Virus record (IMG/VR): IMGVR_UViG_3300044616_000782
Span: 1-20,092 of that record
Reading direction: 5' to 3' (one strand)
Origin: a virus
DNA length: 20,092 nucleotides
Shown: positions 5,631 to 20,038 of the stretch, piece after piece
Layout: the number at the start of each line of letters is the position of its first letter
How positions within the stretch are numbered: the stretch's first letter is position 1
Position numbers and translations under genes: made by a program
The notes under the pieces: model-generated
What the model was told of the DNA's origin: nothing
What the model saw: the letters and a program-made list of their open reading frames with translations, nothing else
Database searches by the model: none

Positions 5631-6331
5631 GGCTCCTCCACTGCGAGCGTCATGGAGACCTCCGCCCAAAGCTGCGCCTCGCCCAGCCACGTCGGCGTCG
5701 TCGTCGACATGACGCGACCGTCAATGCGCCCGTTGGGCCGCAGCGGCTCAAGGATGTCGTCGAGGTTGCCGACGAGCGTGACCTTGCCCCGCTGGCACCA
5801 GCCAAAGAGCCAAGCGTCAAGCGCCCACTTGTGGAGCGTCAGGCGCACCGTGAGCACCCGAGCGGCGCCCCAGGTGTAGCCCATATCGCGCTCCATGCGG
5901 TCGTTCAGGCGCTCGTCGTCGGCGTCCACGCGATGGGCTTGCGTGTAGAAGCCCGCGATGGGGATAGCCACGGGCGCGATGCGCTGCGACGTGAACGAGG
6001 TCGCGGTGGCCGTCGGCGACAGCGACGCTTCTTGGGTTAGGCCCATGATGACCGCCAGCCGGTCGGGCGCCGTCAGCGTCGCCGAGCTTGCCGGCGTCAC
6101 CGTGTACAGCCCGCCCGCGTGCGTCGTCGGAGCGCCCGCCGTGGTGAGCGCGGTCGCAAGCTCGTCGGCGCGGTAAGCGCTTGGCGCGGCCGGAATGGTG
6201 TAGGTCGTCGCGCCCACCTTGAGGCTGCGATACCCCGCCTCGCTCGTGTCGATGTAGCCGTAGAGCATGGCCGCCGGCGGCGGTAGCACGTCGGGCAGCG
6301 GGTGTTGCAGCGCCTGCGATAGCGTCCTCAT
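5627..6331 (-). CDS. Tail protein downstream of tape measure (234 aa)
   Basis: ATG 6331-6329 (MRTLSQALQHPLPDVLPP) is preferred over upstream in-frame starts because it overlaps the previous stop as ATGA. The gene ends in ATGA shared with the large hub candidate. Residues about 40-105 read like a motif I have seen in virion structural proteins: a short strand (ATTYTIP), a Y-x-A-D-E-L-A-x-A-L helix, then Y-T-V-T-P and a M-G-L-T turn. A C-terminal part (about 150-234) contains R-V-L-T-V-R-L-T-L-H-K-W-A-L-D and is probably a second beta domain. The preceding gene product has a comparable central segment, so the two may be diverged paralogues forming parts of the distal tail, such as a Dit-like ring; that role is inferred. 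Confidence 0.7.
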   Translation of the reverse strand: MRTLSQALQHPLPDVLPPPAAMLYGYIDTSEAGYRSLKVGATTYTIPAAPSAYRADELATALTTAGAPTTHAGGLYTVTPASSATLTAPDRLAVIMGLTQEASLSPTATATSFTSQRIAPVAIPIAGFYTQAHRVDADDERLNDRMERDMGYTWGAARVLTVRLTLHKWALDAWLFGWCQRGKVTLVGNLDDILEPLRPNGRIDGRVMSTTTPTWLGEAQLWAEVSMTLAVEEP

Positions 6332-6927
6332 GGCGTGGCCACCCCGTTCAGCACGACCTCGACGATGCCAGGGAGACGCCCCTGCGGCTGCATGACCGAG
6401 CCCGTCACGCGCATGCGCCCGAGCCACACGCCCTCGGCGACCACGTCCCAGATGCCAGACCGAAGCGTGCGCACCTGCGCAAAGGCGTCAGCGAAGTCGA
6501 ACGCCACCGCCACGCTCAGCGACGCTGCTTGCCACCGTAGCGGCGCGACAGCGGTCGCGTCGGCCGACACCCCGCCCTTGCCCGTCGACCAGCCCGGAGG
6601 GGCCATCCGAAGGCCCTGTGGCACGATGACCGCGGGCACCGTGCTGCCGGTGTACGAGGACGCCCCCGAAGCCGAGCTGGGGAGGCCCGTCAGCGTGGCC
6701 ACGTCGGACCCGAGCCCGAGCGTGAAGTTGCTCGACCGTGAGACCGTCAGCGCGCCGGTGGCGTCGACCGACAGCGCAAACGAGTTGTCGCGCAGCCGCT
6801 GCGTCGCCGCTTGGACTGCGCGCGCCATGATGGACCACGCGCTCTCGCGCTCGTCGCCGTCGACGCCAGTGGACTGGAGGCTGGCGCTGCCGATGATGGG
6901 CGACGCCGGGAAGAACGCAGCGACCAT
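6328..6927 (-). CDS. Tail protein immediately after tape measure (199 aa)
   Basis: The start is ATG 6927-6925 (MVAAFFPASPIIGSAS): it overlaps the tape-measure stop by one base (TGATG) and has GGGAGG six bases upstream. A TTG at 6933 in frame is less likely. The protein has a helix around residues 30-48 (WSIMARAVQAATQRLRD), then F-A-L-S-V-D-x-x-G-A-L-T-V-S-R-S, N-F-T-L-G-L-G and a G-L-P turn, and later strands including RWQAASLSVAVAFDF. The plan helix, strand, A-L-T, G-L turn is shared with the next gene product. In siphophages the gene directly after the tape measure commonly encodes the distal tail or minor tail protein, which is the best guess here. Confidence 0.7.
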   Translation of the reverse strand: MVAAFFPASPIIGSASLQSTGVDGDERESAWSIMARAVQAATQRLRDNSFALSVDATGALTVSRSSNFTLGLGSDVATLTGLPSSASGASSYTGSTVPAVIVPQGLRMAPPGWSTGKGGVSADATAVAPLRWQAASLSVAVAFDFADAFAQVRTLRSGIWDVVAEGVWLGRMRVTGSVMQPQGRLPGIVEVVLNGVATP

Positions 6928-9224
6928 CACCAACCTCCCGCGCTAGCCATGCCCGTGTTGCGCGCCTGCTGCTCCGCCTGGCGAAAAGCCCGCGCCGTGC
7001 TCTGGCCGTCCACGATACCCGTCTGGAGGTTGTAGACGTTCGTGATGGCGCCGCCGCCGGAGCTTCCGGAGCTGCCCGTAGTGGCCGATGCAGGCTTTTC
7101 GGTCGGTGGTTTTTGGCCTCCTCCTTCGGTCTTGACGACGCCGCCCGCGACAAGCCCAAACATAGTAGCCGCAGTGAAGTGGCCGACCGACTGCGCAGGG
7201 TTCGTGAACATGGTCGCAAAACCCATGGCCGTTTCGTAGATGGCTCGAATGCCCGCCTCGGCCTTGACGCCCCCAATCTGCTTAGCGACTGCGCCCGCGA
7301 TGCTGCTGGCACTCGCGCCGACCGCGGCAGCGAGCCCCGTCTGGCCTTCTTTGTAATTGCCCATCTGCGTCGCGACTTGGTCGACGACCTTAGCAATATC
7401 GGCAAACGCCGGCACTGCCATTTGCGAGAGCTGGCTGATGCCGTCTTTGTAGCTTTCCACCTCTTGCAACGGCATGGCGAGCTTCTGCTTCTCGAGCTCC
7501 TCGCGGGCCTTCTTGTCGGCCGCCAGAGCCTCTTCGCGCATCTTCTTTTCGGCCTCGGCAGCCTTCTCTTTCGCGCCCGTCAGGTTGTCTACGCCTTCCT
7601 TAAGCTTGGTATAGGCGTCCGTCTGTTTCTTGACAGCATTGGCAACCTTGTCCTCGTTGACGGCACCAAGCAGGTCAAGCTCCCCGCGGGCCTTGAGCAC
7701 TTCGTCGATCGCCTTCAGCTGTTCCTCAAGCTCTTTACGAACCTTTTGAACCTCTTCGCCAGCCTTGCCCTTCGGAACATCTGCAAGCTGGGCCAGAACC
7801 CCGCGAATCTCATCCCGCTTTTTCTGGATCTCAAGCTGAACCTTAAGCGCTTCGGCCGTCTGCTCCTTGGCTTGTTCTAGAGTGACCGGCTGAACGCGCG
7901 ACGCCAGCAATTCATTGACGCCCTTGATCTGTGTCTCAAGCTGCTTTCTGACTTCTTCGTGAGCCTTGGCATATTGGCCGGTCGGAAGCGCAGACAGCTC
8001 AGCGGTCAGGCGCGCCTTCAGCGCTTCGGCCTGCACAAACAGGTCCTTCTCGCGCTTGATCGCGTCTTCGCGCTCCATCTCCTGGATGCGCAGCTCCTTC
8101 AGCTTGTCGCGGGCCTGCTCGGCCTTCTCCAGCGCTTCCTTTTCGCGCTCCGCCTTGCTCTTCCCGCCACCGCCACCGGAAGGGACGACCGGCTTGTCAG
8201 CGGCAACGTCCGCAGCCGCTCCTGCGAGGACGACTGTGTCCTTTGTCAGGCCGACCATCTGCTTCAACGCGGCGACCTGCTTGTCCATTTCAATTCTGGC
8301 GAGCTTCGCTTGGTTGGCCTTCGCTCCAGTAAGGGTCACTCCGACGAATGAAAACGAGTTGATTTCCTGCTCAAGCTCTAGCTGGCGCTTTTTCTTCTCG
8401 GTCAGCTCACCTTCGCCGTAGTTGAGTACCTCGGTCGCAAAACCACGCACGCGGTTTTCTTTGTTAAGCTTTTCGTCGAGCTCAAGCACTCGGTTCTTGA
8501 CCTTGAAGTGCTCAGCTTGAAGCTGATTCAGCAACTCTTGACCATGGGTGTGAACAGTCGTCGCAATGCGCTCCTCGCGTTCAAGCTCCTTCTGCGTTTC
8601 GAGCTTGTCGCGCAGCTGCTCCTCAAGGTCCTTAACCCGGTCAACCTCTGCCTTGTGGTCCAGCTCGGCTTGGATGCGACGCGCGCCGGCCTCGTCTTTC
8701 AGGAGCTGCGCATGCCGAAGCTGCTCCTGCAATATCTGCGTCTGAAGGTCTCGCTGCTCAGTCACGCTGCCGCGCTCGGCTTCTTGCAAGGCGGTAATCT
8801 CATCCCGCAGCTCACTGGCTCTTTCCGCCTGTTCCGCCAACCTCTCGTTGAGCTTCTCGGTGGCCTCCTTGGCCTCCTCGGATTCCTCCGTGAAGAACTT
8901 GTAGACCTCGATTGCGCCCTGGACAATCTCGCTCACGTTGCCAAAGACGCCGGTGACCTTTTCGATAGCGCCGAACAGGCTATCAAAGCTTCCGGTTACG
9001 CCTTCAAGGCCTTCACCAAACGAGTCAAGACCGCCGTTGAAGCGCTCCCACGCGCTCTGATTGTCGTCGGCAGCGTCGGTGTTGTCGTCCGAAGCATCCG
9101 TCAGGTCGCGCAACTGGTCCTCAAGCGCCTTCATCCGGCGCTTGGCGTCCTCGAGCATCTTCCGGGTTTCGTCCTCACCCGTCAGACTGATGTCAAGCTC
9201 CGTTCTGCCCGCGCCCAGTCCCAT
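6927..9224 (-). CDS. Tail tape measure protein (765 aa)
   Basis: A long, highly charged, helical protein that sets tail length and is ejected with the DNA at infection. Nearly all of residues 110-590 are heptad-like with dense E, K, R, Q and L, predicting extended coiled coil, broken by a G-rich stretch near 349-354 (SGGGGG). Residues 600-700 are Ala/Gly-rich and hydrophobic (LAAAVGASASSIAGAVAKQIGG, TMFGLVAGGVV), the usual membrane-active part. The C-terminus (ITNVYNLQTGIVDGQSTARAFRQ, in part) matches the conserved ending of many tape measures. Residues 403-443 and 473-513 are similar without gaps, about 14 identities in 41, indicating an internal duplication. ATG 9224-9222 has GGGAG upstream; the gene overlaps the chaperone extension by 32 bases. 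At the usual rule of about 0.15 nm per residue the tail would be near 115 nm. Confidence 0.93.
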   Translation of the reverse strand: MGLGAGRTELDISLTGEDETRKMLEDAKRRMKALEDQLRDLTDASDDNTDAADDNQSAWERFNGGLDSFGEGLEGVTGSFDSLFGAIEKVTGVFGNVSEIVQGAIEVYKFFTEESEEAKEATEKLNERLAEQAERASELRDEITALQEAERGSVTEQRDLQTQILQEQLRHAQLLKDEAGARRIQAELDHKAEVDRVKDLEEQLRDKLETQKELEREERIATTVHTHGQELLNQLQAEHFKVKNRVLELDEKLNKENRVRGFATEVLNYGEGELTEKKKRQLELEQEINSFSFVGVTLTGAKANQAKLARIEMDKQVAALKQMVGLTKDTVVLAGAAADVAADKPVVPSGGGGGKSKAEREKEALEKAEQARDKLKELRIQEMEREDAIKREKDLFVQAEALKARLTAELSALPTGQYAKAHEEVRKQLETQIKGVNELLASRVQPVTLEQAKEQTAEALKVQLEIQKKRDEIRGVLAQLADVPKGKAGEEVQKVRKELEEQLKAIDEVLKARGELDLLGAVNEDKVANAVKKQTDAYTKLKEGVDNLTGAKEKAAEAEKKMREEALAADKKAREELEKQKLAMPLQEVESYKDGISQLSQMAVPAFADIAKVVDQVATQMGNYKEGQTGLAAAVGASASSIAGAVAKQIGGVKAEAGIRAIYETAMGFATMFTNPAQSVGHFTAATMFGLVAGGVVKTEGGGQKPPTEKPASATTGSSGSSGGGAITNVYNLQTGIVDGQSTARAFRQAEQQARNTGMASAGGW

Positions 9225-9513
9225 AGTGACGCTCCCATCCTGCTAGGTCATGCAGGTCCCGGACCACCCATGCGGGCAGGTCATCGCCGCGGAGGGTACC
9301 ACAGACCTCCCGCTCTTGCTGCAAACCACGCAACACGCGCAATCTCGCGCTGTTGCGCACCTCGCCGATAGGGCAGGAGGGCCAGAGGACGTCGTAGAGC
9401 TTGCCGCCTGCGCAAAGCTCATCGCACGCGCCTTTGCCGACGCAGTGATACCCCCACCGGGCCAACTCCTGGAGGCTGGCCGCCACGCGGATGAGAGCTA
9501 TTTCGTGACCGCT
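9193..9513 (-). CDS. Tail assembly chaperone T-like extension, made as G-T fusion by -1 frameshift
   Basis: This frame lies in the -1 phase relative to the upstream G gene and has no good start of its own; an in-frame GTG at 9486 has no ribosome binding site and would discard a coherent upstream stretch (SGHEIALIRVAAS). Joined at the slippery heptamer 9519-9513, the fusion runs from ATG 9845 to the stop at 9193 and gives 217 residues. In lambda-like phages such G/GT pairs sit just before the tape measure and chaperone its assembly with the tail tube, exactly the arrangement here. The extension (106 aa) contains five cysteines (YHC, GAC, ELC, PSC, EVC), unusual for this class, and overlaps the tape-measure start by 32 bases. 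Confidence 0.82.
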   Translation of the reverse strand, partial: SGHEIALIRVAASLQELARWGYHCVGKGACDELCAGGKLYDVLWPSCPIGEVRNSARLRVLRGLQQEREVCGTLRGDDLPAWVVRDLHDLAGWERHYGTGRGQNGA

Positions 9514-9845
9514 AAAGGGTTGGTGCTAACCCGGTAGATGAAGGCCCCCAGCGACCGCTGGAAATGCCACGGAATAGGCTCCGCGCCGCTGATTAGCGCC
9601 TTGTCGCCCTCGTGAACGCCCGCATCCACCAGTGCGCCGAGCATCTTGCCGTCGTCCGACAGCGGTACGGCGTCGAACTCCCGCCGTGTCAGCGCTCGCA
9701 CCCGCACCCGCGTAGCATCTTCCCCCGCAATCACGTCTGAAATCGGCACCCATTCGTTGTTGCCACGCTCCCCGACACCGGACACGTCCGGGTCGGAGGT
9801 GTTCACCACTTCGAAATAGGCCGTGTTGACCCGCTGCAACCCCAT
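9498..9845 (-). CDS. Tail assembly chaperone, G-like (115 aa)
   Basis: This small protein sits between the tail tube and the tape measure, the fixed position of lambda G-type tail assembly chaperones, and ends four codons after a canonical -1 slippery heptamer. ATG 9845-9843 (MGLQRVNTAYFEVVNTSDPD) has GAGGAG about eight bases upstream. The sequence is a mix of charged and beta-forming segments (VRVRALTRREFDAVPLS, FIYRVSTNPLAVTK) without a catalytic motif. Family knowledge: most ribosomes make G alone, a minority make the G-T fusion, and the ratio is important for tail assembly; neither protein normally remains in the virion. The assignment comes from position and frameshift signal more than from sequence similarity. 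Confidence 0.8.
   Translation of the reverse strand: MGLQRVNTAYFEVVNTSDPDVSGVGERGNNEWVPISDVIAGEDATRVRVRALTRREFDAVPLSDDGKMLGALVDAGVHEGDKALISGAEPIPWHFQRSLGAFIYRVSTNPLAVTK
9513..9519 (-). promoter_or_regulatory. -1 programmed ribosomal frameshift site CCCTTTA
   Basis: In the G frame the codons read AAC CCT TTA, so the heptamer C-CCT-TTA fits the canonical X-XXY-YYZ pattern (X=C, Y=T, Z=A). Slipping back one base moves the ribosome into the frame of the T-like extension four codons before the G stop at 9498 (GCG GTC ACG AAA TAG). Position, phase and gene order all agree with the G/GT frameshift of siphophages. Confidence 0.85.
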
Positions 9846-9865
9846 CTGCGTCTCCTCAGATGGCG

Positions 9866-11089
9866 TCAGGCGAACGACACGCGGAACGCCGTGCCCTTCA
9901 CGGTGCTCGTCCCGGTGGTGCCGTCGTCTGGCGCAATGACATTGCGGACTTCGAGCACGCGCTCAAAGCCCCAGATACCGCCAAGGTCGACCGGCTTGCT
10001 CGTGCTCTGCACTTGGAGCGCAGGACCGTAGGCCGCGACATGGAATCCCTGCTGCGCGCCGCGTGCCGACAGGTACCAGGCGCGCTTTACGGCCTCGCCT
10101 GGCGTGCTCTGGCTGGCCATGTCGGCGTAGATGTCCTCGGTGGTCTTGCGCTCGGTGATGACCGCCGTTCGGTCCGTGGTCACCAGCTGCGAAACACCCT
10201 GCGCCGACTGCGCGCAAAGGGCCTCGGCGAGGGTCTGCGTCACGACGATGGACACCTCCGAGAAGCACTCGTAGGCGTCGGCAATGCTGTCGTAGACGCC
10301 GGCCGTGTTGATGACCGGGCCGAGCTGCGTGCGAGGGAACGAGAACGCCGGAGCCGTCAGCCCGCTGACGTAGTCCCAATCAAGGAACTGCAGCGTGATG
10401 GCGACCGTCACCTGCGTCTTCGAGTTGGCCGTGATGGTGCAGTTCGTGACGCGACCGTCGTAGGCCCGGAAGCCACCGTCGACGCTGCCGGCCGTCGCGA
10501 ACTGCATGGTGAAGGGGAGATTGGCAAGGCCACCCGTCCCGAATGCCACGGTGACCGAGGCGCTCGCCGAGTTGCCCGGCGTGTCCTCCATGTCGAAGGG
10601 CAGGTTGACCTCGTCGGGATTCGGCCCCGTGTCGACCGTCTGCACCCACGAAATTTGGCGGTTGCCGTTGTCGAGCAGCACGCCCGCGCCTTGGCCAATC
10701 CAGTCGGCGCTGGCGCTCGCGACGAGCAGCTGGTCCGCACTACCGCCCGAGATAGCGCCGATCGCTGCCAGCTGCTGAAGCGTGCCAAAGGCGTCGGCGA
10801 TGAGCTTGTGCTCGATGGTGGTAGCAATGGCGCCACCAACGCCGACGTTACAGTTTGTCAGCACGAACGTGAGCTGCGCGGTGGCGCCGGCCTTGCTGCC
10901 CGGCTTCTTGTCGCTGGCGCCGAACACCGGCCGCTGCGTCGGCTGGCCCAAAGCCTCCTGCTCGCCAGCGGGCATAAACATGCCCTGCGAGTCGATGGCG
11001 TCGGTGTCCGCAAAGGAGGTCTCGGCAGTGCCCCACGCGCTCTGCTGCTTGACCCAGATTCGTCCGAGCTTGGTCGGTCCCAGTGCCAT
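9866..11089 (-). CDS. Major tail tube protein (407 aa)
   Basis: The protein begins MALGPTKLGRIWVKQQSAWGTAE, matching the common opening of siphophage tail tube subunits (a strand, then a K-x-x-x-x-G-T turn). It lies between the tail terminator candidate and the G/GT chaperones. The body is beta-rich and Gly/Thr/Ala-rich, with strands such as TAQLTFVLTNCNVG, NCTITANSKTQVTVAITLQFL in part, and SIVVTQTLAEAL. At 407 residues it is long for a simple tube subunit, so an extra surface domain (Ig-like or similar) is likely. ATG 11089-11087 has GGAGGT six bases upstream, one of the strongest sites in the window and fitting for an abundant protein. Polymerised rings would surround the tape measure. Confidence 0.82.
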   Translation of the reverse strand: MALGPTKLGRIWVKQQSAWGTAETSFADTDAIDSQGMFMPAGEQEALGQPTQRPVFGASDKKPGSKAGATAQLTFVLTNCNVGVGGAIATTIEHKLIADAFGTLQQLAAIGAISGGSADQLLVASASADWIGQGAGVLLDNGNRQISWVQTVDTGPNPDEVNLPFDMEDTPGNSASASVTVAFGTGGLANLPFTMQFATAGSVDGGFRAYDGRVTNCTITANSKTQVTVAITLQFLDWDYVSGLTAPAFSFPRTQLGPVINTAGVYDSIADAYECFSEVSIVVTQTLAEALCAQSAQGVSQLVTTDRTAVITERKTTEDIYADMASQSTPGEAVKRAWYLSARGAQQGFHVAAYGPALQVQSTSKPVDLGGIWGFERVLEVRNVIAPDDGTTGTSTVKGTAFRVSFA

Positions 11090-11100
11090 GAGCTACCTCC

Positions 11101-11541
11101 TCAACCTGTGATGACAGCGCCGTCGAGCTTGTACACGACGACGACGGAAAACGCACTCGTAATGCTACTTGGCGAGGCCTCGGTCAGGCCCACCGGCTGG
11201 ACGTCTACGCGCATGACGCCCGGCGCAGTCTCAAAGAGCCGCTCGGCCTTGGACCAAAAGCGCTCGGAGTCCGACGCGATGCGGTCCTCGACGCCGGCTT
11301 GCATGGCCGCATAAAAGAACGTCGCGGTGAACTCGACGCGCCAAGTGTCGCAGTTGTTGATTTCGACGCGCGCCGGCTGGGCCGCCAGCGTCAGAGTAAA
11401 GACGCGGTCGGGCGCCGAGTCCGGGTCGATGGCCCCGGCGTCGAGGTGCCGGAAGCGGTCGCTCGCGTGGGCCCGCACATCCGGGATGGCGCTCTCGATG
11501 GCCGCCGCCAGCGCTTGTCGAATGGTCGAGGCGCGCGTCAT
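11101..11541 (-). CDS. Tail terminator/completion protein candidate (146 aa)
   Basis: ATG 11541-11539 (MTRASTIRQALAAAIESAIPD) overlaps the stop of the connector gene as ATGA; an upstream in-frame GTG at 11550 is less likely. The N-terminal amphipathic helix, then a beta-rich region (RVFTLTLAAQPARVEI, WRVEFTATFFYAAM) and a C-terminal strand (AFSVVVVYKLDGAVI) fit the alpha/beta fold of siphophage tail terminators (lambda gpU-like), which cap the tube and join it to the head. The position directly before the tail tube gene is where such proteins are encoded. Length is close to the usual 130-150 residues. The assignment is inferred from position and secondary-structure pattern. Confidence 0.65.
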   Translation of the reverse strand: MTRASTIRQALAAAIESAIPDVRAHASDRFRHLDAGAIDPDSAPDRVFTLTLAAQPARVEINNCDTWRVEFTATFFYAAMQAGVEDRIASDSERFWSKAERLFETAPGVMRVDVQPVGLTEASPSSITSAFSVVVVYKLDGAVITG

Positions 11542-12410
11542 GTGCGGCACAGCCTGATGGTCTTAGGACTCCGCAGATCGGACGCGTCCACCTTGCCGTC
11601 GTCCTGCTCGTCGTAGTAGGCGCCCGCCAGCGCAAACTCCATCTGCTGCTTGAGCTCCTCCTCCATCCGGTCGACAAACGTCGTGCCGTCGAAGCCCGGA
11701 GGAATGAGCCCGTCGCGCGCAAGCTCGATGCGAAGCGCCGCCATGCCTGCGTCAGCAAGCAGGCTCTGGTCGCCGACGAGGTACGGCATGCGGCCCGACG
11801 CCATGACGCGCTGGATGACCCGCCGCGACGCCCGCTCGGCAACGCCGACCCAGTACTCGGACCGCTTGCCGGCCGCGACGCCAGGGAACGCATAGCCCGC
11901 GTGACGGGCTGCGACGTCCGGCGTCATCGGCACGCTGAATACGGTGCGACATACGCAGGCCGGTTCGAGGTAGTTGCTGACCTGACCCGCCGTCGGAGTG
12001 ACGAGCCAACGCAGCTGATACCACTGGCCGACCTGCGCAGTCGACGCGCTCGGGATGGTGGCCGACAGCGTAGCCCCGTAGAGGCTGCACGCGGTCGTGA
12101 CCGTCACACCGAGAGTGTCCTGGTACGAGACGGTCGTACCGGACACCGACGAGGGGCGGATGAGCGCCGCACCCTCGGTCGGATTAACCAGCCAGTAGGC
12201 CCGGCCGGCCGTGATGGTGCCCGCTCCGGCCGCCACCACGAAAGAGAAGTCCCCGACGCTGGCGATCGCTCGCGACACCGGGTCGAGGGTCACGCTGGGA
12301 GACGACAGCGTGACACCCGCCGATGAGACGAACGCCAGCGTCGCAGACGCGGGACGCACCGGCGGCACGAGCTCCACCGGTGCGCTTTGGTTTTGCTGAA
12401 GAAACCGCAT
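11538..12410 (-). CDS. Head-tail connector/neck protein candidate (290 aa)
   Basis: The gene lies between the major capsid protein and the tail terminator candidate, where head-tail adaptors are encoded. ATG 12410-12408 (MRFLQQNQSAPVELVPPVRP) has GAGGAG about seven bases upstream. The protein has two parts: residues 15 to about 165 are Ser/Thr/Val-rich beta strands resembling an Ig-like or carbohydrate-binding sandwich (TLAFVSSAGVTLSSPSVTLD in part), and residues 170-290 are helical (VAERASRRVIQRVMASG, ADAGMAALRIELARDG, MEEELKQQMEFALAG), as in connector proteins that form helical rings under the portal. The added N-terminal domain makes it roughly twice the usual adaptor length. Function is inferred from context. 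Confidence 0.65.
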   Translation of the reverse strand: MRFLQQNQSAPVELVPPVRPASATLAFVSSAGVTLSSPSVTLDPVSRAIASVGDFSFVVAAGAGTITAGRAYWLVNPTEGAALIRPSSVSGTTVSYQDTLGVTVTTACSLYGATLSATIPSASTAQVGQWYQLRWLVTPTAGQVSNYLEPACVCRTVFSVPMTPDVAARHAGYAFPGVAAGKRSEYWVGVAERASRRVIQRVMASGRMPYLVGDQSLLADAGMAALRIELARDGLIPPGFDGTTFVDRMEEELKQQMEFALAGAYYDEQDDGKVDASDLRSPKTIRLCRT

Positions 12411-12436
12411 GGCGTCTCCTCACACGCGGTTGGGCT

Positions 12437-13315
12437 TCAGACCTCAGAGCCGACGATGCCGTCAGGCAGGGCCGAGACGGCCGCGCTGATAGCGAAGTCG
12501 AGCGAGTACTTGCCCGCCTTGCTGTCTTCGTCGATCTGCACCTGAAGGTCCGGCGCGCTGCGCTCCCAGAAGATGAGCGGCGAGCTAGAGCGCGACACGA
12601 GGAACCAGTTGTCGGCATCGCTCAGGTGGTTCCAGACGATGGTCTGAATCCCGTAGGAGCCCGCCATGTTGAGCTGGTTCTGGTCGCTGGTGACGGCCGA
12701 GCCGAGGGCCTGACCGGCAGCCTCCTCGAGGTCCGGCGGAACGATCAAATAAAAGCCACCCTCGGCGACGACATCGCGCGGCAGGCCCTGGTAGTCGCGC
12801 CACCGGCGGAACATGGCGATGGCCGCCATGATGGCCGCGGAGTCAAGAGCCGTGGTGAGCTTGTTGGACCGCGTGCCGATGGCCGTGGTGTGGTCCACAG
12901 CGCAGAGGGCCTTGCCGTCGACCGACGTGGTCTGCGTCGAGAACGCGCCAGCGAGGACCTCGGCAGCCTTGGCCGCGTAGGTCGAAGCGGTCGCCACGCC
13001 GATGCGCTGCGGCAGCGTGGTGGTCGACTCGGGCACGTCCTTGGCGTCGTACTTGTCCACGCGGACCTGCACGCCGTACTTCTCGTACTCGACGAGCTGC
13101 GGCGTCAGGGCCTCAAGCTCCTGCACCGGGAGGTCGCCGCCCATCCACTTCGGAATCTGGGACACGCCGGTAATGGGCGAGATGCGGAGGTCGGCGATAT
13201 CGTTGCGACGGTAGTCGAACGCCTGCGCCCACTGCTCGCTGACCGAGAAGACGCCCTCGAAGAAGCGCTCGACGACGGTCTGCTTGACGTTGGTATTGTT
13301 GAAGTTGGTAGCCAT
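12437..13315 (-). CDS. Major capsid protein, Mu gpT-like (292 aa)
   Basis: The sequence follows the pattern I know from Mu-type major head subunits (gpT family): after a helical N-terminal arm (residues 1-40) and the I-P-K-W-M-G-G-D segment near 54-61 comes D-G-K-A-L-C-A-V-D-H-T (133-143), corresponding to the family's DGxxLFxxxH motif, then Y-L-I-V-P-P-D-L-E-E-A-A (189-200) and a late N-W-F-L-V strand near 236-240. The length of 292 is close to the family's 300. It should form the HK97-fold icosahedral shell. ATG 13315-13313 has AGGAGGT eight bases upstream, and the decoration candidate lies just ahead, an order typical of capsid cassettes. No cleavable N-terminal delta domain or adjacent protease is evident. 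Confidence 0.88.
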   Translation of the reverse strand: MATNFNNTNVKQTVVERFFEGVFSVSEQWAQAFDYRRNDIADLRISPITGVSQIPKWMGGDLPVQELEALTPQLVEYEKYGVQVRVDKYDAKDVPESTTTLPQRIGVATASTYAAKAAEVLAGAFSTQTTSVDGKALCAVDHTTAIGTRSNKLTTALDSAAIMAAIAMFRRWRDYQGLPRDVVAEGGFYLIVPPDLEEAAGQALGSAVTSDQNQLNMAGSYGIQTIVWNHLSDADNWFLVSRSSSPLIFWERSAPDLQVQIDEDSKAGKYSLDFAISAAVSALPDGIVGSEV

Positions 13316-13330
13316 GTCAGTGACCTCCTA

Positions 13331-13798
13331 TCAGTCGAGCGGCTGGAGAGAGACGATGAACTCCTTCGCGTCCGCCTGGTTCGCCGCGGAAGCCGCGTTG
13401 AACTGGCCCGTCAGGGAGATGACCACGTCGGAGTTGGTGTCGAGCGCAAGGTCCGCCAAATGGCTTCCCGAAACGAGGACCGCCGAACCAGCCGACAGCG
13501 ACCGAACCTGAAGCAGGTCGTTAGCGATGCTGCCCGAGACAAAGCCGTCGATGACCTCGTTGTTGACGACGTCATGAGCCGCGACCGTGGCCACAACGTG
13601 GCTTCCGATCTTGACCTTGGTCAGGAAGGTGTCGGAACCGTTGGTCGACGGCAGCTTCAGCGCATAGTCAATGCTAAGCTTGTAGGGGCTGCGCAGAAAA
13701 AACGCCGGCACAGTGACCTCGGCCATGACGATCTCGGCAGTCGAGTTCGTGGCCCGGGTGAACGACGCAGGCTGAAACAGATTGGCAGGCTTTGCCAT
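13331..13798 (-). CDS. Capsid decoration/head accessory protein candidate (155 aa)
   Basis: A small protein encoded directly before the major capsid gene with a very strong ribosome binding site (GGAGGA before ATG 13798-13796). That position and size are typical of decoration proteins that trim the capsid surface (Mu gpN-like or lambda gpD-like). The sequence is beta-rich: MAEVTVPAFFLRSPYKLS, TKVKIGSHVVATVAAHDVV and SDVVISLTGQFNAAS alternate hydrophobic and polar residues, with a short acidic C-terminus. There are no cysteines. It follows the hairpin-containing gap, so it and the capsid gene may be expressed as a boosted two-gene unit. The role is inferred from context. Confidence 0.68.
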   Translation of the reverse strand: MAKPANLFQPASFTRATNSTAEIVMAEVTVPAFFLRSPYKLSIDYALKLPSTNGSDTFLTKVKIGSHVVATVAAHDVVNNEVIDGFVSGSIANDLLQVRSLSAGSAVLVSGSHLADLALDTNSDVVISLTGQFNAASAANQADAKEFIVSLQPLD

Positions 13799-13818
13799 GT
13801 TGTCCTCCGAGTGAAAGA

Positions 13819-13859
13819 GCCGGCCCGCGCCGGTGCCCGACCACTATGGGCGCGCCGGC
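13819..13859 (-). promoter_or_regulatory. Strong hairpin in the gap before decoration and capsid genes
   Basis: Arms GCCGGC at 13819-13824 and 13854-13859 pair perfectly, and an inner GCGCC/GGCGC pair (13827-13831 with 13849-13853) extends the stem to 11 G-C pairs with a two-base bulge and a 17-base loop. It occupies the middle of the only sizeable gap inside the head cassette. There is no run of T after it on the minus strand, so a classical intrinsic terminator is unlikely; an RNA-processing, stability or attenuation element is possible. Confidence 0.5.
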
Positions 13860-13894
13860 GAGAGCCTGCAATCACCACCAGAAACCCCTAACAA

Positions 13895-14344
13895 TCACCG
13901 ACGCTTGGCTTTGTCAAAACCCTTGGAAACGGTGATGTCCACACCCTGCCCGAGCTCGCGCTGCATGACCTGCGCCGCCGTCGGACGGTTGCGCGACAGG
14001 GCCTTTCGCGCGGCCTGCACGTTGGCCCACACCTGGGGGTCATACCAGACGTACACGCCCAGCTTGCCGTCGCGCTCGAAGCCCAGCGGCGGACGCATCC
14101 CCGCCGGCGCGTCCATGGCGCCCATGGCCTTGTGCTTGTGGTAGATGCGAGCGCAGGCCGGCGGCATCGACCCGTCCGTGTGGCGCGCTCCGCAACGGAA
14201 CCAGTGCATGCGCTCCATGCCCGGAGGGGCAAACCACATGCCCACCTCGTCGGTCTTCGAGATGTCGTCGAGGTCGCGCACGAACCGCTCCGCCTGCGCG
14301 CGCTGCTCGGCGAGGGCCTTTTCCAGGTCGAAGTTGGTCGTCAT
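13895..14344 (-). CDS. Head-region protein of unknown function (149 aa)
   Basis: I do not recognise this protein. ATG 14344-14342 (MTTNFDLEKALAEQRAQAER) overlaps the stop of the scaffold candidate as ATGA, so the two are probably coupled. The N-terminal 30 residues are helical and charged. Residues about 36-75 contain W-F-A-P-P-G-M-E-R-M-H-W-F-R-C-G-A-R-H, then P-P-A-C-A-R-I-Y-H-K-H-K, a Cys/His spacing that could bind a metal ion. A Y-V-W-Y-D-P-Q-V-W segment follows, and the C-terminus is basic (VSKGFDKAKRR). Location between scaffold and decoration genes suggests a head assembly role, but nothing in the sequence proves it. Confidence 0.7.
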   Translation of the reverse strand: MTTNFDLEKALAEQRAQAERFVRDLDDISKTDEVGMWFAPPGMERMHWFRCGARHTDGSMPPACARIYHKHKAMGAMDAPAGMRPPLGFERDGKLGVYVWYDPQVWANVQAARKALSRNRPTAAQVMQRELGQGVDITVSKGFDKAKRR

Positions 14345-14868
14345 GGCTCACCCCCGAGGTTTTTCGCGATGGTCCGCCGCACAAGCTCCTGGTCAAAGAC
14401 CTTGCGGTCTTCAAGCTTCTGCTGGCCACGGTTGCGCGCGGTCTTCTCGATGCGCTCGACCACGCCGGCCGTGACGTCACCCGCCGGCCTTGACGCGGGC
14501 GCAAAGATGTCCGCATGCGAAGCCCTGAACTCTTCGAGGGCCTTGCGCCCGTCGGCCGTCCGCGGGTCGACCTGCGGCGCGACCTGGGCGAGGAGCGACG
14601 GGCTGACACGAGCACCCGCCCGCGTGAGGTAGCCCACCACCTCCTCGCGCTGCGAGGCTGCCAGCTGCTGGCGCTGCTGGTCCAAGAACGCAGCTTGCTG
14701 CGCCCGGAGGTCCGCCATCTGCTTTTCGAGCTCCGCCGCCCGAAGCTCCGCCTCGCTCGGCCCCTTCTTCGCGGCAGGCTTTGCGGGAGCTTTGACGGTC
14801 GCACGCCGCTGCTCCTGCTTGGCCTTCTGCTTTGCCCGCAATGCTGCGAGCTGGTCTTTAAGCGCCAT
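14341..14868 (-). CDS. Capsid scaffold candidate, coiled-coil protein (175 aa)
   Basis: The N-terminal half is almost entirely Ala, Lys, Glu, Gln, Arg and Leu: residues 1-25 (MALKDQLAALRAKQKAKQEQ) and 38-76 form heptad-like helices separated by a Lys/Pro/Ala linker. The C-terminal half has a helical domain (VVGYLTRAGARVSPSLLAQV) and a basic end. Helical, charged, 150-250 residue proteins encoded just before the capsid genes are typically internal scaffolds that guide shell assembly. ATG 14868-14866 has AGGAGGGAG immediately upstream, consistent with high expression. No protease catalytic motif is visible, so it is not an obvious protease-scaffold fusion. Alternative: an inner head protein. 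Confidence 0.66.
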   Translation of the reverse strand: MALKDQLAALRAKQKAKQEQRRATVKAPAKPAAKKGPSEAELRAAELEKQMADLRAQQAAFLDQQRQQLAASQREEVVGYLTRAGARVSPSLLAQVAPQVDPRTADGRKALEEFRASHADIFAPASRPAGDVTAGVVERIEKTARNRGQQKLEDRKVFDQELVRRTIAKNLGGEP

Positions 14869-14883
14869 GTCTCCCTCCTGCTC

Positions 14884-15111
14884 TTACGCGGCCTCGACGT
14901 CAGCCACTTCGGCCTCGGCCTCTGCCCCGTCCTCGAGGACCTCGTCCTCTTCGTCCCCGGCCTCGTCCATGTACTCAAGGTGCTGGATCAGACGCGCCAG
15001 CATCTCAGCCACTTTCGCCTCAAGCTCGGTCGTCGGCTCGGCTGGCAGCAGCGCCACCAGCTCGTCCGCGAGGATACCCAGCTTGTCCACGTTCTCCTGA
15101 AACTCGTCCAT
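14884..15111 (-). CDS. Small acidic head-region protein (75 aa)
   Basis: ATG 15111-15109 (MDEFQENVDKLGILADELVA) follows the stop of the morphogenesis gene after a single base (TGA G ATG), so translation is likely coupled; an upstream in-frame start at 15150 would overlap that gene. Residues 1-48 form an amphipathic helix pair with a T-T-E-L-E-A-K-V-A-E-M-L core, and the last 27 residues are very acidic (DEAGDEEDEVLEDGAEAEAE in part). Small acidic proteins near the portal and scaffold genes can act as assembly chaperones or DNA mimics, but the role here is not established. I do not recognise the family. Confidence 0.62.
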   Translation of the reverse strand: MDEFQENVDKLGILADELVALLPAEPTTELEAKVAEMLARLIQHLEYMDEAGDEEDEVLEDGAEAEAEVADVEAA

Positions 15112-15112
15112 C

Positions 15113-15766
15113 TCACACCCCCAGCAGCTCGGACCTCCGACGCTCTGCACCTCGCAGACGTCGGTCCATCCGCCCTAGCTCGACGGCTTGACCGATGCGG
15201 CGCGCAAACGCCTCATCGATGTTTGCCTTGATTTCGGCCACGAACTGGCGGCGCTCCTGGTCGGAGTACTGAAGCACGCTCGTGGACTCCTTGCGACCCG
15301 CCAGCGTGGCCACCTGCGCCTGCGCCACGCCCTTCTTGCGCGAGCCGTAAAAGCTCACCTTGACGCGGTTGACCGCCATGGCCCGGACGCCCAGAGAGCG
15401 CCACAGAGACCCAGTGCGCTTAAAGTCGCGACGACGTGCCCCCGGCGCGAGGTCGAGATAGCGGTCGTAGTTTTCGTAGCAGGCCCAGCCCTTGAAGACG
15501 CCCTGCGTCGAGATGAACAGGTAGCCCGGGGGCTGCGGCTGTGTCGGCGGAATCCACCAGCGGTTCGCCTCGTCCTTGCTGCGCCCCGTCGTCGCGTAGC
15601 TGCCCAGCTGGCTGAAGGGCTGGCCCGTCGCGGCAATGCCACGCAGAGCACGGTCGCGGATGCGCTCGGCCAGATGTGTCGCGGCATTCTTCAGCGGCAC
15701 AATGAGCTTCTTCGACAGCTCGTCGAGCTTGTCGAAGCCCTTGTGCTGGATGTCATATCCCACCAC
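15113..15766 (-). CDS. Virion morphogenesis protein, Mu gpG-like (217 aa)
   Basis: The start is GTG 15766-15764 (VVGYDIQHKGFDKLDEL), with AGGAGG six bases upstream; a second GTG follows immediately. It overlaps the portal gene by 14 bases. The layout matches phage virion morphogenesis proteins (Mu gpG / HK97 gp10-like neck proteins): an N-terminal helix L-D-E-L-S-K-K-L, then a long helix R-I-R-D-R-A-L-R-G-I followed by a Q-P-F-S-Q-L-G-S-Y turn, then F-K-R-T-G-S-L-W-R-S-L and strands with V-K-V-S-F-Y-G-S. The C-terminal 60 residues are a charged helix (EIKANIDEAFARRIGQAVEL) that extends beyond the usual core. Family members act in head completion or head-tail joining. Location next to the portal supports this. 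Confidence 0.68.
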   Translation of the reverse strand: MVGYDIQHKGFDKLDELSKKLIVPLKNAATHLAERIRDRALRGIAATGQPFSQLGSYATTGRSKDEANRWWIPPTQPQPPGYLFISTQGVFKGWACYENYDRYLDLAPGARRRDFKRTGSLWRSLGVRAMAVNRVKVSFYGSRKKGVAQAQVATLAGRKESTSVLQYSDQERRQFVAEIKANIDEAFARRIGQAVELGRMDRRLRGAERRRSELLGV

Positions 15767-17159
15767 TTGGCACCTCCTCCGGCGGCTCGACGGCTACGGT
15801 CTCCGCGACCGCCTGCTCCGCCTCCGGCATCAGACGCGCGTCAAGCTCCTCGTCCGCCAGCATGCGACGCAGGGCCTCCTCGACCCCAATTCCATCCATC
15901 TTGGCGCGGGCGCGGACCTTGCCGATGAGGCCAAGCGTCTGCTGGAGCTGAAGGGCCTGCGCGTCGTGCAGCGGGTCGGCAGGCAGCACCGGCTCGCGGA
16001 ACTCGAGCTCCACCTTCGCCGGCGGCAGGACCTCGACGCCACGCACTGCGTTGACGTACGCGCGGACAAGGTCGTAGCACCGCTGCTCGCCGCGCTGAAG
16101 CTCGTCGAGGTACTTCTGGCGCTCGGTGTCGCGGTCAATCTGCTCCATCTTCTTGGCCAGCGCCGTGATGCCCGCCGACTTCAGGAACGTCGCCGGGTTC
16201 ATGCCCTGCGCCGAGATGACGGCTCGCATGTACTGCTCGTTGGTCGCCGCGTACCCCGCGAGGTCCGGCTGCGGTCGCGCGAAGTCCAGGCGCGCGGTCG
16301 GGTCCCCGAACGCCGCCAGCGTCTCGGGCCCGGTGTCCATGTTCTCGGCCTCGCCCGCGCTGACGCCCGAGACGTACATCTGCGAGTAGCCCTGCAACCG
16401 CGCGATGTGCCCGAGGTCGGTCATGTCGTGGTTAATGGCCCGCTGCGCGTCCAGCAGGTCGTCGGGCGCGTAGCACCACCATGCCCCAGAGACCGTGTCG
16501 TCTCCACGCATGCACACGACGGGGATGCGGCCGAACGGATTGACTCCGCCAAACGGCGGCGGGTACTCGGCCGCGTACTCGTCCATCCAGGTGATATCGC
16601 TGGCCGTGAAGCGCGCGGTCGCGTAGCGCACCCCGCCGAGGTCCGGGTCCTGCTCGATAGGCACAAGGATGCGCCACGCCGAGACCTCGTCCTCCGACTG
16701 CGCCAGCGGGTCTGTCAGCTCCACCGCCTGGTCATGCGGCGGCATGGTCACGCAGCGCAGCGAGGCCCCGTTCGGGAACAGCCAGACCGTCGACTGGTTC
16801 AAGGTCACAAGCTGCCCGTAGGCCGCTTGCATCGCCTTATCGACGCCGGCCTCGGAGTACACAAGCTCGATGACGCGCAGCACGGCCTCCGGCAGCGGCA
16901 GCCCCGTCACCGGGTCCACGAAGGCCCGCGTGCGCTTCATGGAAGCCATCTCGCGGGCATTGCGCCAGATAAACGGGACGACGCGCTGGACGTGCTTCTG
17001 CCACGTCTTCGGGTACAACCTAGCCCGCTGCCGGCGGCTGTCCTCCATGTTGCGATGCAGGTACTCCCAGAGGATGCGCATCTTGTCGCGCCAGACCTGC
17101 GAGCCCGGCCCGTCCGTGAGGTATCGCCACCCACCGTTCAGCTGAAGCGCCAGACTCAT
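15753..17159 (-). CDS. Portal protein (468 aa)
   Basis: The gene directly follows the large terminase and has the size and character of a phage portal, the dodecameric ring at one capsid vertex through which DNA enters and leaves. The N-terminal region is Arg/Trp-rich and helical (WRDKMRILWEYLHRNMEDSR). The central part has the portal pattern of strands with F-G-R-I-P-V-V-C-M, followed by the long helices D-L-L-D-A-Q-R-A-I-N-H-D-M-T-D-L and Y-M-R-A-V-I-S-A-Q-G-M-N-P-A-T-F, which correspond to the wing and stem parts. The C-terminal 60 residues are helical and end acidic (VAVEPPEEVPSGGI). ATG 17159-17157 has a TGAGG site that overlaps the terminase stop ten bases upstream. Confidence 0.88.
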   Translation of the reverse strand: MSLALQLNGGWRYLTDGPGSQVWRDKMRILWEYLHRNMEDSRRQRARLYPKTWQKHVQRVVPFIWRNAREMASMKRTRAFVDPVTGLPLPEAVLRVIELVYSEAGVDKAMQAAYGQLVTLNQSTVWLFPNGASLRCVTMPPHDQAVELTDPLAQSEDEVSAWRILVPIEQDPDLGGVRYATARFTASDITWMDEYAAEYPPPFGGVNPFGRIPVVCMRGDDTVSGAWWCYAPDDLLDAQRAINHDMTDLGHIARLQGYSQMYVSGVSAGEAENMDTGPETLAAFGDPTARLDFARPQPDLAGYAATNEQYMRAVISAQGMNPATFLKSAGITALAKKMEQIDRDTERQKYLDELQRGEQRCYDLVRAYVNAVRGVEVLPPAKVELEFREPVLPADPLHDAQALQLQQTLGLIGKVRARAKMDGIGVEEALRRMLADEELDARLMPEAEQAVAETVAVEPPEEVPSGGI

Positions 17160-17168
17160 ATCGAGACC

Positions 17169-18659
17169 TCACAAGTGCTTTCGGCTCAGCATGTAAGCCG
17201 TCGAGTGCCGGGAGTGTAGCATCACCTGATGCATGCGCAAAGCGTCGCACCCGTGGTCAAAGACGTTGTCTTTGTGCGGGATGTTGGTGATTACGCCAAA
17301 CATGTCCTGCTTGTACCTGTAGTTCTGGACGCATGCAACGATCCCGCGCCGCTCGTCCGTCTTCGCTAGGTGCCGAGCGAAGAGCAGCATGGGCGAGCGC
17401 TCCACCGGGTCGAGCTGGTCACGCACCAGCTCAATGCCCTCGGCGACGCTCTGCTCAAGGCGGCTGTTCATGCGGTGCACTTGCGACTTCGGGAACTGCT
17501 CAAGGCACCACTGAATCTCGCGCTTCACGGCGCGGTCGCAGACGATGTGCGTGGGCTCGCGCTGAAGGCGCTTGCACCGCATGACAATCTCCTCGTGGAG
17601 CTTGCCCGTCGGCACGTTGTCGGGGCACAGCTCGTCGAAGACGATGCTGCGGCCCTGCGGGTCGCGGGCAACCCAGAGGACGTGGGGATACTGGTCGCCG
17701 GCGTCGTAGGCTAGGTCATACTCCATGTTGGCGAGGAAGCGGCTGAACTCGACGCAGTGCCGCTGCTCGTCGAACTCGGCCCAGATGACCGACTCCGGCC
17801 GCAGGATTTCGGCGAGGACCTCCTGCCGCCAGCGTCGCGCGCTGTAGTGGACCCGCAGGCCGTCGAGGTAGTTGGCCGGCAAGTGCGGGTTGTCTAACGC
17901 GGTGTTGCGCCACCAGCCCCACCGCATCAGCTCCTTGCGGCGCTCGCCCTCGTCCTTGATGCCCTTGGCCTTGGTCCGAGCCTCGTGGAACTTGGCCACC
18001 ACCCCGCGCAACCCGTTGGGCGTAGTCGTGCCGAAGATCTGGCGCCACTTGCTCCCCGGCCGCCGGATACGCCCGTCGACCGTGTCCCAGACCTCAAGCG
18101 ATCGCGGGATGGTCTCGATCTCGTCCATCCACGCGGTCGAGAACTCGAAGCCCAGCAGGTTGGCGATCTTCGCGTAGGTGCGGGCAAAGACCTTGCCCCC
18201 GCACACGAGGGTCTGTTCCTTGGCCGCCTTGTGCCACTTGCCACTGGCGAGCGGGTACCCCGACTGCTCCATCTCCTCGACGTAGCGGTGCCAGTGCGGC
18301 AGGTTTACGTTGCTGACCTGGTCGTGCGTCGGACCGCTCAGCATGTGCCAGCCGCCCGGGTTGGCGATGACGCCCATGACAAACTCCGCCCCGGCCCACG
18401 CGGTCTTACCCGCGCCGATGCCCCCTAGGTGCAGCTTCTGCGTCTTCGGGCTCGTATACCGGCCCTTGACCGGGTCCCACTCCGGCAGCGACAGCCCCGC
18501 GCAGTGCGCCTGCATCATGTGCGGCATGGGCTTGTACGTCGTGACCGAGCAGAAGAACTGGAGCAGCAGACGCCGGTCTTTGCTTAGCTCTTCGCGAAGC
18601 TCTCGCCACCCTCGCATCTTGATGCTGGCGGCTGCCTTGCGAGCGCTGCTCTTCATCAT
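17169..18659 (-). CDS. terL: Terminase large subunit (496 aa)
   Basis: The DNA packaging motor: an ATPase that pumps genome DNA into the prohead and a nuclease that cuts it. ATPase signatures are complete: Walker A G-G-I-G-A-G-K-T (79-86), Walker B W-M-D-E-I-E (177-182, with D179 and catalytic E180) and the coupling motif T-T-T-P-N-G (211-216). The RNase H-like nuclease domain follows with acidic residues in Y-D-A-G-D (near 319), I-V-C-D-R-A (375) and D-H-G-C-D-A-L (468 and 472). Length is normal. ATG 18659-18657 is doubled (ATGATG), has GGAGG eight bases upstream and directly abuts the stop of the overprinted frame at 18660. The methyltransferase frame reads on into its first 254 bases. Confidence 0.97.
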   Translation of the reverse strand: MMKSSARKAAASIKMRGWRELREELSKDRRLLLQFFCSVTTYKPMPHMMQAHCAGLSLPEWDPVKGRYTSPKTQKLHLGGIGAGKTAWAGAEFVMGVIANPGGWHMLSGPTHDQVSNVNLPHWHRYVEEMEQSGYPLASGKWHKAAKEQTLVCGGKVFARTYAKIANLLGFEFSTAWMDEIETIPRSLEVWDTVDGRIRRPGSKWRQIFGTTTPNGLRGVVAKFHEARTKAKGIKDEGERRKELMRWGWWRNTALDNPHLPANYLDGLRVHYSARRWRQEVLAEILRPESVIWAEFDEQRHCVEFSRFLANMEYDLAYDAGDQYPHVLWVARDPQGRSIVFDELCPDNVPTGKLHEEIVMRCKRLQREPTHIVCDRAVKREIQWCLEQFPKSQVHRMNSRLEQSVAEGIELVRDQLDPVERSPMLLFARHLAKTDERRGIVACVQNYRYKQDMFGVITNIPHKDNVFDHGCDALRMHQVMLHSRHSTAYMLSRKHL

Positions 18660-19560
18660 TCAAAATCCTCCATGCAGTTGCTGCCACTGCTGGTACTTGT
18701 CCGTTGCCAAGGGCTGCAAGTCTGTGTAACCGAGCGGCCACCCCATTAGCCACTCGACCCACGTCGGGTTCAACATTCCACCAGCTTGCGCTGCTAAGGT
18801 TGGCGTGTTCCGCTCCTTCTCTGATTGATAGTTGCCCTCCTTCGCATTGTGTGCTGTTGGGGTTGGCCACAAGCATTTCTTCTCGAACATCGGACCATAT
18901 TGAGCTTCCCACTTCTGAATCAAGTCCTTGTTGCTCTCGTCTTTGATGTTGGGCCTGCGATCGAAATGCATCGCAAGACTTTCCAGCCTCATTTGAACGT
19001 GCCCGCCATGCCGCTTTGCTCTGGCTGCCAAAAGCTCCAGTGGTTGGTTGGTTTGAGTTTTGACTGGTGTCGGCAGCAACAATCCAGATTCGTTCTCTCT
19101 TGTGAGGAGCTCCGGTGTTTTCTGCTGAAACAACACCCCATCGCGCATCATACCCCATCGCGGCAAGGTCACCGAGGACTCTGGCAAGGCCTCGTCCCAC
19201 AAGCATCGGTGAGTTCTCCACGAACGCGTAACGAGGTCGTACCTCGCTGATAATTCGTGCCATGTGTGACCACATTGAAGAGCGCTTTCCGTCAATTCCT
19301 GCACCCTTTCCGGCAGCGCTGATGTCCTGGCAGGGAAAGCCTCCAGAAACGACGTCAACACGGCCTCGCCATGGGCGGCCGTCAAAGGTTTGAACGTCAT
19401 CCCAGATTGGGAAAGGCGGCAATGTTTTGTCGTTTTGACGGGCAACCAAGACGCTTGCAGCGTAGGCGTTCCACTCAACAGCGCACACGGTGCGCCATCC
19501 AAGCAGGTGTCCGCCGAGTATGCCTCCACCAGCGCCCGCGAAAAGAGCCAGCTCATTCAT
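18406..19560 (-). CDS. dcm: DNA (cytosine-5) methyltransferase (384 aa)
   Basis: Transfers methyl groups from S-adenosylmethionine to C5 of cytosine, probably to protect phage DNA from host restriction. Motif I is L-A-L-F-A-G-A-G-G-G (4-13), motif IV G-G-F-P-C-Q-D (73-79, catalytic C77), motif VI V-E-N-S-P (114-118; the usual ENV is ENS), motif VIII K-R-E-R-I-W-I-V-A (154-162) and motif X L-G-N-G-Q-V-P (284-290). Residues 165-265 are the likely target recognition region. ATG 19560-19558 has GAGGAG upstream, seven bases after the small terminase stop. The catalytic domain ends near residue 300; the frame then runs 84 codons further, overlapping terL by 254 bases, and that tail is low-complexity and may be neutral. 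Base composition is nearer 53 percent G+C, unlike the neighbours. Confidence 0.85.
   Translation of the reverse strand: MNELALFAGAGGGILGGHLLGWRTVCAVEWNAYAASVLVARQNDKTLPPFPIWDDVQTFDGRPWRGRVDVVSGGFPCQDISAAGKGAGIDGKRSSMWSHMARIISEVRPRYAFVENSPMLVGRGLARVLGDLAAMGYDARWGVVSAENTGAPHKRERIWIVAADTSQNSNQPTTGAFGSQSKAAWRARSNEAGKSCDAFRSQAQHQRREQQGLDSEVGSSIWSDVREEMLVANPNSTQCEGGQLSIREGAEHANLSSASWWNVEPDVGRVANGVAARLHRLAALGNGQVPAVAATAWRILNDEEQRSQGSRQHQDARVARASRRAKQRPASAAPVLLLGHDVQAHAAHDAGALRGAVAAGVGPGQGPVYEPEDAEAAPRGHRRG
18660..19556 (-). CDS. Overprinted frame within the methyltransferase gene (298 aa)
   Basis: A second frame, also on the minus strand, is open for 298 codons across the methyltransferase domain. 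It starts at ATG 19556-19554, four bases after the methyltransferase start and usable from the same ribosome binding site, and stops at 18660, exactly abutting the terL ATG. Its product (MSWLFSRALVEAYSADTCLD...) looks protein-like: L-T-S-F-L-E-A-F-P-A-R-T-S-A-L-P near 67-81, R-W-G-M-M-R-D-G (133-140), L-L-L-P-T-P-V (159-165), W-P-T-P-T-A-H-N (230-237), and the ending L-N-P-T-W-V-E-W-L-M-G-W-P-L-G (262-276). From memory, open frames with this MSWLFS start, WPTPT motifs and LNPxWVEWLMG ending recur in phage and metagenome sequences, often labelled hypothetical or methyltransferase. Function unknown; it might alternatively be a conserved shadow of the enzyme. Confidence 0.55.
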   Translation of the reverse strand: MSWLFSRALVEAYSADTCLDGAPCALLSGTPTLQASWLPVKTTKHCRLSQSGMTFKPLTAAHGEAVLTSFLEAFPARTSALPERVQELTESALQCGHTWHELSARYDLVTRSWRTHRCLWDEALPESSVTLPRWGMMRDGVLFQQKTPELLTRENESGLLLPTPVKTQTNQPLELLAARAKRHGGHVQMRLESLAMHFDRRPNIKDESNKDLIQKWEAQYGPMFEKKCLWPTPTAHNAKEGNYQSEKERNTPTLAAQAGGMLNPTWVEWLMGWPLGYTDLQPLATDKYQQWQQLHGGF

Positions 19561-19567
19561 TGTCTCC

Positions 19568-20038
19568 TCAACTGACGATGTTGTCATCACCGGTCCCGCG
19601 CTCCGGAAAGGGGAGGGGCAGCTGGAGGTCGAGCGGCACCTGGACAAGCTGGTTGTCAGCGGTCGCGTTAGCCCCAAAGCGCTCGGCCATCAGCCGCAGG
19701 TGGCGCAGCTGCGCGGCCGCAAGCTTCTCGTAGCTCAGGATGTGCTCGTCCTCCTCGTCCATCTTTGCCAGCATCGAGCGAAGACGCAGGCAGTCGGCCG
19801 CCTGAAGCATCATGACGGTCTGGATGTTGAGCGCATTGTCGTCGAACAGCCGCTCGACCGCCTGCGCGACGTGCGCCGGGTAGTACTCGCGGAACACCTG
19901 CCAGCCGAACGGGATGCTCGACTCGCGCGCGTCAGCCGCTTCGCGCGAAACGTTGTGCATTTTCTTGGCACTTGGTCGCGGCGCCTTCTCGGTTGGCACT
20001 TTGACGACCGTTTTTTTCGATGTGCCACGGGATTTCAT
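19568..20038 (-). CDS. Terminase small subunit candidate (156 aa)
   Basis: The gene lies ahead of the large terminase, separated only by the methyltransferase, at the start of the packaging cassette, where small terminases that recognise the packaging site are normally encoded. ATG 20038-20036 is the first ATG after an in-frame TAA (20047-20045). The N-terminus is basic and disordered-looking (MKSRGTSKKTVVKVPTEKAP); residues 44-72 are helical (FGWQVFREYYPAHVAQAVERLFDD in part), residues 73-118 form long charged helices suited to oligomerisation (QAADCLRLRSMLAKMDEEDE), and the C-terminus is Pro/Leu-rich (LQLPLPFPERGTGDDN), which could contact the large subunit. No clear helix-turn-helix is seen, so the call rests on position, size and helical pattern. 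Confidence 0.6.
   Translation of the reverse strand: MKSRGTSKKTVVKVPTEKAPRPSAKKMHNVSREAADARESSIPFGWQVFREYYPAHVAQAVERLFDDNALNIQTVMMLQAADCLRLRSMLAKMDEEDEHILSYEKLAAAQLRHLRLMAERFGANATADNQLVQVPLDLQLPLPFPERGTGDDNIVS

Follow-up and report, generated by a model that had tools for sequence, protein, structure and literature searches.

Overlapping frames of a phage gene that probably encode two chains of one C5-cytosine methyltransferase

Split methyltransferases and the layout of the phage locus

The principle of dividing an enzyme over overlapping frames is already known for one bacterial enzyme. Lee, Kam and Shaw reportedly described in 1995 a small M.EcoHK31I polypeptide whose coding sequence is nested, in a different frame, within the large gene. 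Orphan methyltransferases of phages usually serve to protect phage DNA from restriction. The larger M.EcoHK31I subunit carries motifs I–VIII, motif X and the predicted recognition domain and the smaller one only motif IX, while in M.AquI one subunit holds I–VIII and the other IX–X (both from a paper on M.SssI fragments, PMC3404938). The locus analysed here, on the minus strand of a 20,092-nucleotide stretch of viral DNA (the window), resembles M.EcoHK31I, a two-polypeptide C5-methyltransferase (YGGCCR), in that one chain (frame F1) has motifs I–VIII and X and, of the conserved motifs, the other (frame F2) has only IX. It differs in that F2 shares its ribosome-binding site with F1 and covers nearly the whole gene, in that the window showed no restriction gene and in that the recognition region apparently belongs to F2 rather than to the large subunit. 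Unlike M.AquI (CYCGRG), the window has motif X retained in F1, so that its second chain does not unite IX with X. A phage methylase gene with a second protein in another frame offers a further likeness, although that protein is encoded by a mobile insertion, is an endonuclease and is not part of the enzyme. The features of the locus are:

18643–19560, minus strand: F1, C5-cytosine methyltransferase frame (PF00145, E 1.2e-33; phrog_363, 3e-68)
19066–19560, minus strand: F1 motifs I–VIII, the catalytic half (hhalign to single-chain enzymes, E 3e-44)
18655–18714, minus strand: F1 motif X (ALGNGQVPAVAATAWRIL; hhalign E 6e-6)
18660–19556, minus strand: F2, 298-aa overprinted frame at +1 relative to F1 (phrog_1008, 2e-22, and homologues)
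18717–18773, minus strand: F2 motif IX (LNPTWVEWLMGWPLGYTDL; hhalign E 2e-11; F1 four-fold divergence of 0.024 opposite)
18774–19079, minus strand: F2 middle with LPTP/WPTP modules, probable target-recognition region (from the codon-position pattern)
19564–19569, minus strand: GAGGAG, Shine-Dalgarno-like, ahead of both starts
19554–19560, minus strand: ATGAATG, F1 start (19560) and F2 start (19556)

F1, taken here as 306 aa from the ATG at 19560, lacks motif IX; GGFPCQ occupies residues 73–78, ENS lies at 115 and KRERIW at 154, and the Pfam match (profile positions 4–180 of 324) covers motifs I–VIII only. F2 runs from its ATG, 4 nt past that of F1 (ATGAATGAGC) and behind a common leader (GAGGAGACAATGAATGAG), to a TGA whose last base, 18660, directly abuts the terL ATG at 18659, and its LPTP and WPTP modules are at 19076 and 18869. 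A preliminary description of the window had reported the two open frames, the shared ribosome-binding site and the abutting terL, together with a lowered third-position GC and paired readings of the same bases, in which V-A-N-P-N-S faces W-P-T-P-T-A and the end of the methyltransferase faces LNPTWVEWLMGWP. All of these were recovered, with a third-position GC of 0.48 in F1 versus 0.90 in terL and portal.

The F1 open frame extends about 80 codons beyond motif X, to 18406 (18406–18654, minus strand) and into the terL start; in one relative (L003) F1 ends directly after motif X. A 156-aa ORF directly upstream (19568–20038, minus strand) has no PHROG match and, judging by its location, may encode a small terminase subunit. 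Downstream lies a virion module (6927–18659, minus strand) with PHROG matches to terL, portal, major head protein and tape measure.

Dual coding and the uneven selection on F2

Comparative tests exclude chance, and on their evidence the dual coding of F1 and F2 is real. Synonymous codons were permuted within each of 187 non-redundant relatives as a null model, from which about 819 internal F2 stops and 2.1 stop-free genes are expected; 6 stops and 184 stop-free genes are observed. These 187 genes were picked for an intact F2, and relatives fetched by F1 alone provide a fairer check: F2 is open in 79 of 80, a set made up of the nearest F1 relatives, with distant C5-methyltransferases outside it. 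Near homologues thus do not commonly carry F2 stops, and the conserved overprinting proposed earlier stands. Base composition is no explanation for the depletion because GC3 in the overprinted class is only about 0.51. In the distant C5-methyltransferase of Streptococcus phage Javan240, motif IX is in frame and the F2 frame carries stops.

Constraint on F2 is uneven: mild over the first half, it becomes dominant in the middle and extreme over LNPTWVEWLMGWP. Divergence at four-fold degenerate F1 sites is 0.42 over codons 4–155 and 0.56–0.59 in relaxed stretches, and falls to 0.19 opposite WPTP and to 0.024 opposite LNPxWVEWLMGWP (motif IX), an 18-fold fall for which the compared pairs are not independent. 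When sequences are aligned by F2, the third position of F1 is the most variable over motifs I–VIII; over the middle and the C-terminal motif the third position of F2 varies most and conservation is higher in F2 than in F1. In the middle of the gene it is thus F2, not F1, that is under constraint. Pairs with F2 identities of 0.55–0.70 have identities of 0.52 (F2) versus 0.29 (F1) in the middle and 0.86 versus 0.73 at the C-terminal motif, and in some columns F1 alternates among V/M/L (NTG) or D/H/N (NAT) while F2 is constant W or M. First-half divergence is not below that of actinophage relatives, a control whose GC3 is unmatched (0.80 vs 0.51), and most of the F2 first half may therefore need only to stay open; lower values occur within it at F1 codons 1–12, 37–60 and 133–144. 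The first ~150 F2 residues look largely like a leader, probably kept open since translation would begin at the shared start. Equally strong selection along the whole of F2 was considered and is ruled out by the codon-position pattern and the four-fold divergence.

Relatives and their three architectures

Homologues of F2 were found by tblastn in 80 phage records, and pattern scans added 36 IMG/VR loci and then at least 556 confirmed stretches. Bacterial genomes yielded 308 matches, many in Pseudomonas and Acinetobacter. Relatives of the Salmonella phage copy occur in four E. coli genomes (e.g., NZ_CP090448.1, 1254489–1255210), in which the matches are annotated as DNA cytosine methyltransferase, with a neighbouring Ea22-like gene in two of the four. 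The start codon of F2 is ATG or GTG in 178 of 186 relatives. An apparent group of relatives without an F1 start was dropped, because 31 of the 32 that lack a start in the usual place have an in-frame start upstream.

In class A, both F1 ends lie in one ORF and both F2 ends in another, with F2 at +1; in class B, F1 ends after motif VIII and F2 carries motif X as well. An HMM scan of 277 loci assigned 252 to class A and 11 to class B, and a wider scan of all loci with actinophage profiles added gave 264 class A, 26 class B and 44 single-chain loci; most loci were fetched by F2, and prevalence is to be taken from the F1-only set. Class B (for instance loci L010, L016, L278 and L284) is like M.AquI in having a second chain with IX–X. 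At L010, motif IX of F2 persists where stops close F1. Split pairs in mycobacteriophages are annotated as two DNA methylases (SchoolBus gp6/gp5 and Blue7 gp92/gp91). On an F1 tree of 123 rows, in which many branches are weakly supported, the three labels require 16 changes; in metagenome contigs, assembly indels may account for some of the class B or single-chain labels.

Several individual loci depart from these classes. The single-chain gene of Gordonia phage Derg (L290, 1417–2802) retains, next to its in-frame LPTP modules, a stretch of open F2 frame that also has such modules, as if the frame junction had moved. Locus L036 (2600–4050) has a stop in the F1 frame within the GFPC motif region (GGFP*LCQDIS), and at L008, L022, L024 and L031 small apparent frame shifts interrupt or fuse F2 or F1; these are either sequencing errors or real switches.

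A probable two-chain enzyme and its alternatives

Judged by profile alignment, the LNPTWVEWLMGWP segment of F2 is the methyltransferase motif IX that is absent from F1. In Derg gp4, from a Gordonia phage, and in its actinophage relatives, a single frame encodes motifs I–VIII together with an EWMMG-type motif and GNGV; a profile was built from 20 aligned relatives of Derg gp4. F1 residues 1–168 align with its first 187 columns (hhalign, 3e-44), F2 residues 258–282 with columns 375–399 (2e-11) and F1 residues 275–302 with columns 401–428 (6e-6). The two frames thus tile the single-chain enzyme in the order F1–F2–F1, which argues that F2 is the missing part of the same enzyme and not an unrelated overprinted gene. 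An AlphaFold2 model of one single-chain enzyme (pLDDT 73, pTM 0.75) matches M.HhaI from end to end (Z 23.5, residues 1–343), and the profile aligns the single-chain EWMMG motif with M.HhaI 272–308, the motif IX–X stretch, a match that is weak by itself; identification of the F2 motif as IX draws on the tiling together with this M.HhaI match. The hallmarks of a C5-cytosine methyltransferase are divided accordingly, with I–VIII, including GFPCQ and ENS, in F1, and IX and X in the gene pair. F2 is a member of phrog_1008, and a relationship to this family is noted for a gene of Streptomyces phage Samy; the family is labelled DNA methyltransferase, yet the members seen carry only the C-terminal part of one. 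The separate second gene implied by the preliminary description gives way to this reading, since the motif IX in F2 belongs to the very methyltransferase that F1 encodes, and relatives have the parts in one chain.

Catalytic F1 together with F2, holding motif IX and probably target recognition, very probably make up a two-chain C5-methyltransferase encoded in overlapping frames. We infer that both frames are translated: F1, with motifs I–VIII and X, would provide catalysis and SAM binding, and F2, starting at the neighbouring ATG from the same ribosome-binding site, would contribute motif IX and probably target recognition. The two chains would bind to form one functional methyltransferase that may mark phage DNA, probably against host restriction. 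F2 probably reads the DNA target because the middle region has an F2-type codon pattern and the F1 spacing between motif VIII and the IX/X profile shrinks to 35 residues in the shortest case, a gap that would leave little room for a recognition domain. The placement of the predicted recognition domain of M.EcoHK31I in its large subunit (PMC3404938) runs counter to this assignment.

Three other explanations of F2 were weighed. ORF length alone is weak evidence for F2 because the window, with a GC content of 65.5%, holds 122 ORFs of at least 60 aa, among them one of 971 codons (2964–5879, plus strand) that is antisense to an 855-aa frame and is likely a high-GC shadow. Long spurious ORFs are thus common here, and the first-half divergence is no lower than in actinophages, as would suit a frame merely held open by F1 and high GC; depletion of F2 stops at a GC3 of about 0.5, the steep fall in synonymous divergence at motif IX and the stops in the same frame of the Streptococcus phage enzyme make such a shadow scarcely credible. 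An unrelated accessory protein (e.g., anti-restriction) that overlaps by accident would fit the separate F2 start and a long N-terminal part for which VIA-align found no fold match, a negative that carries no weight because the model of F2 alone is poor (pTM 0.23). That poor model, and the comparison of the F2 sequence with solved structures, which gave chance-level matches only, also count against the two-chain reading; no Pfam or NCBIfam family scored above threshold for F2. We consider an accessory protein very unlikely, as the most constrained F2 segment is precisely the motif IX that F1 lacks and that single-chain relatives carry in frame.

A +1 ribosome shift from F1 to F2, producing one fused chain, would in class B join I–VIII to IX–X in single-chain order, and phage methyltransferases are listed among the genes with known frameshifts (PMC10885494). 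Fusion in the class to which the window belongs would, however, lose motif X, F2 retains its own start in nearly all loci, and the class B F1 stops after motif VIII show no evident common slippery sequence by eye, so that a frameshift is unlikely. The two-chain enzyme remains the preferred reading.

At a broader scale, we lean slightly towards a very common phage C5-methyltransferase lineage with an overprinted target-recognition half, in which small indels shift genes among one-chain, split and overprinted forms and annotation counts one enzyme as one or two methylases. The arrangement known from one bacterial enzyme recurs in the hundreds of loci from phages and prophages collected here; the open-access literature searched, with most subscription journals and REBASE outside the search, holds no description of it in phages, of its scale there or of interconversion among the three architectures. 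Long same-strand overprinting is well supported in this case, with hundreds of natural replicates. The two-chain reading would explain why many annotated phage methyltransferases lack motif IX and would correct the mislabelled family phrog_1008, and the locus lends itself to testing the loss of F2 with the F1 protein unchanged.
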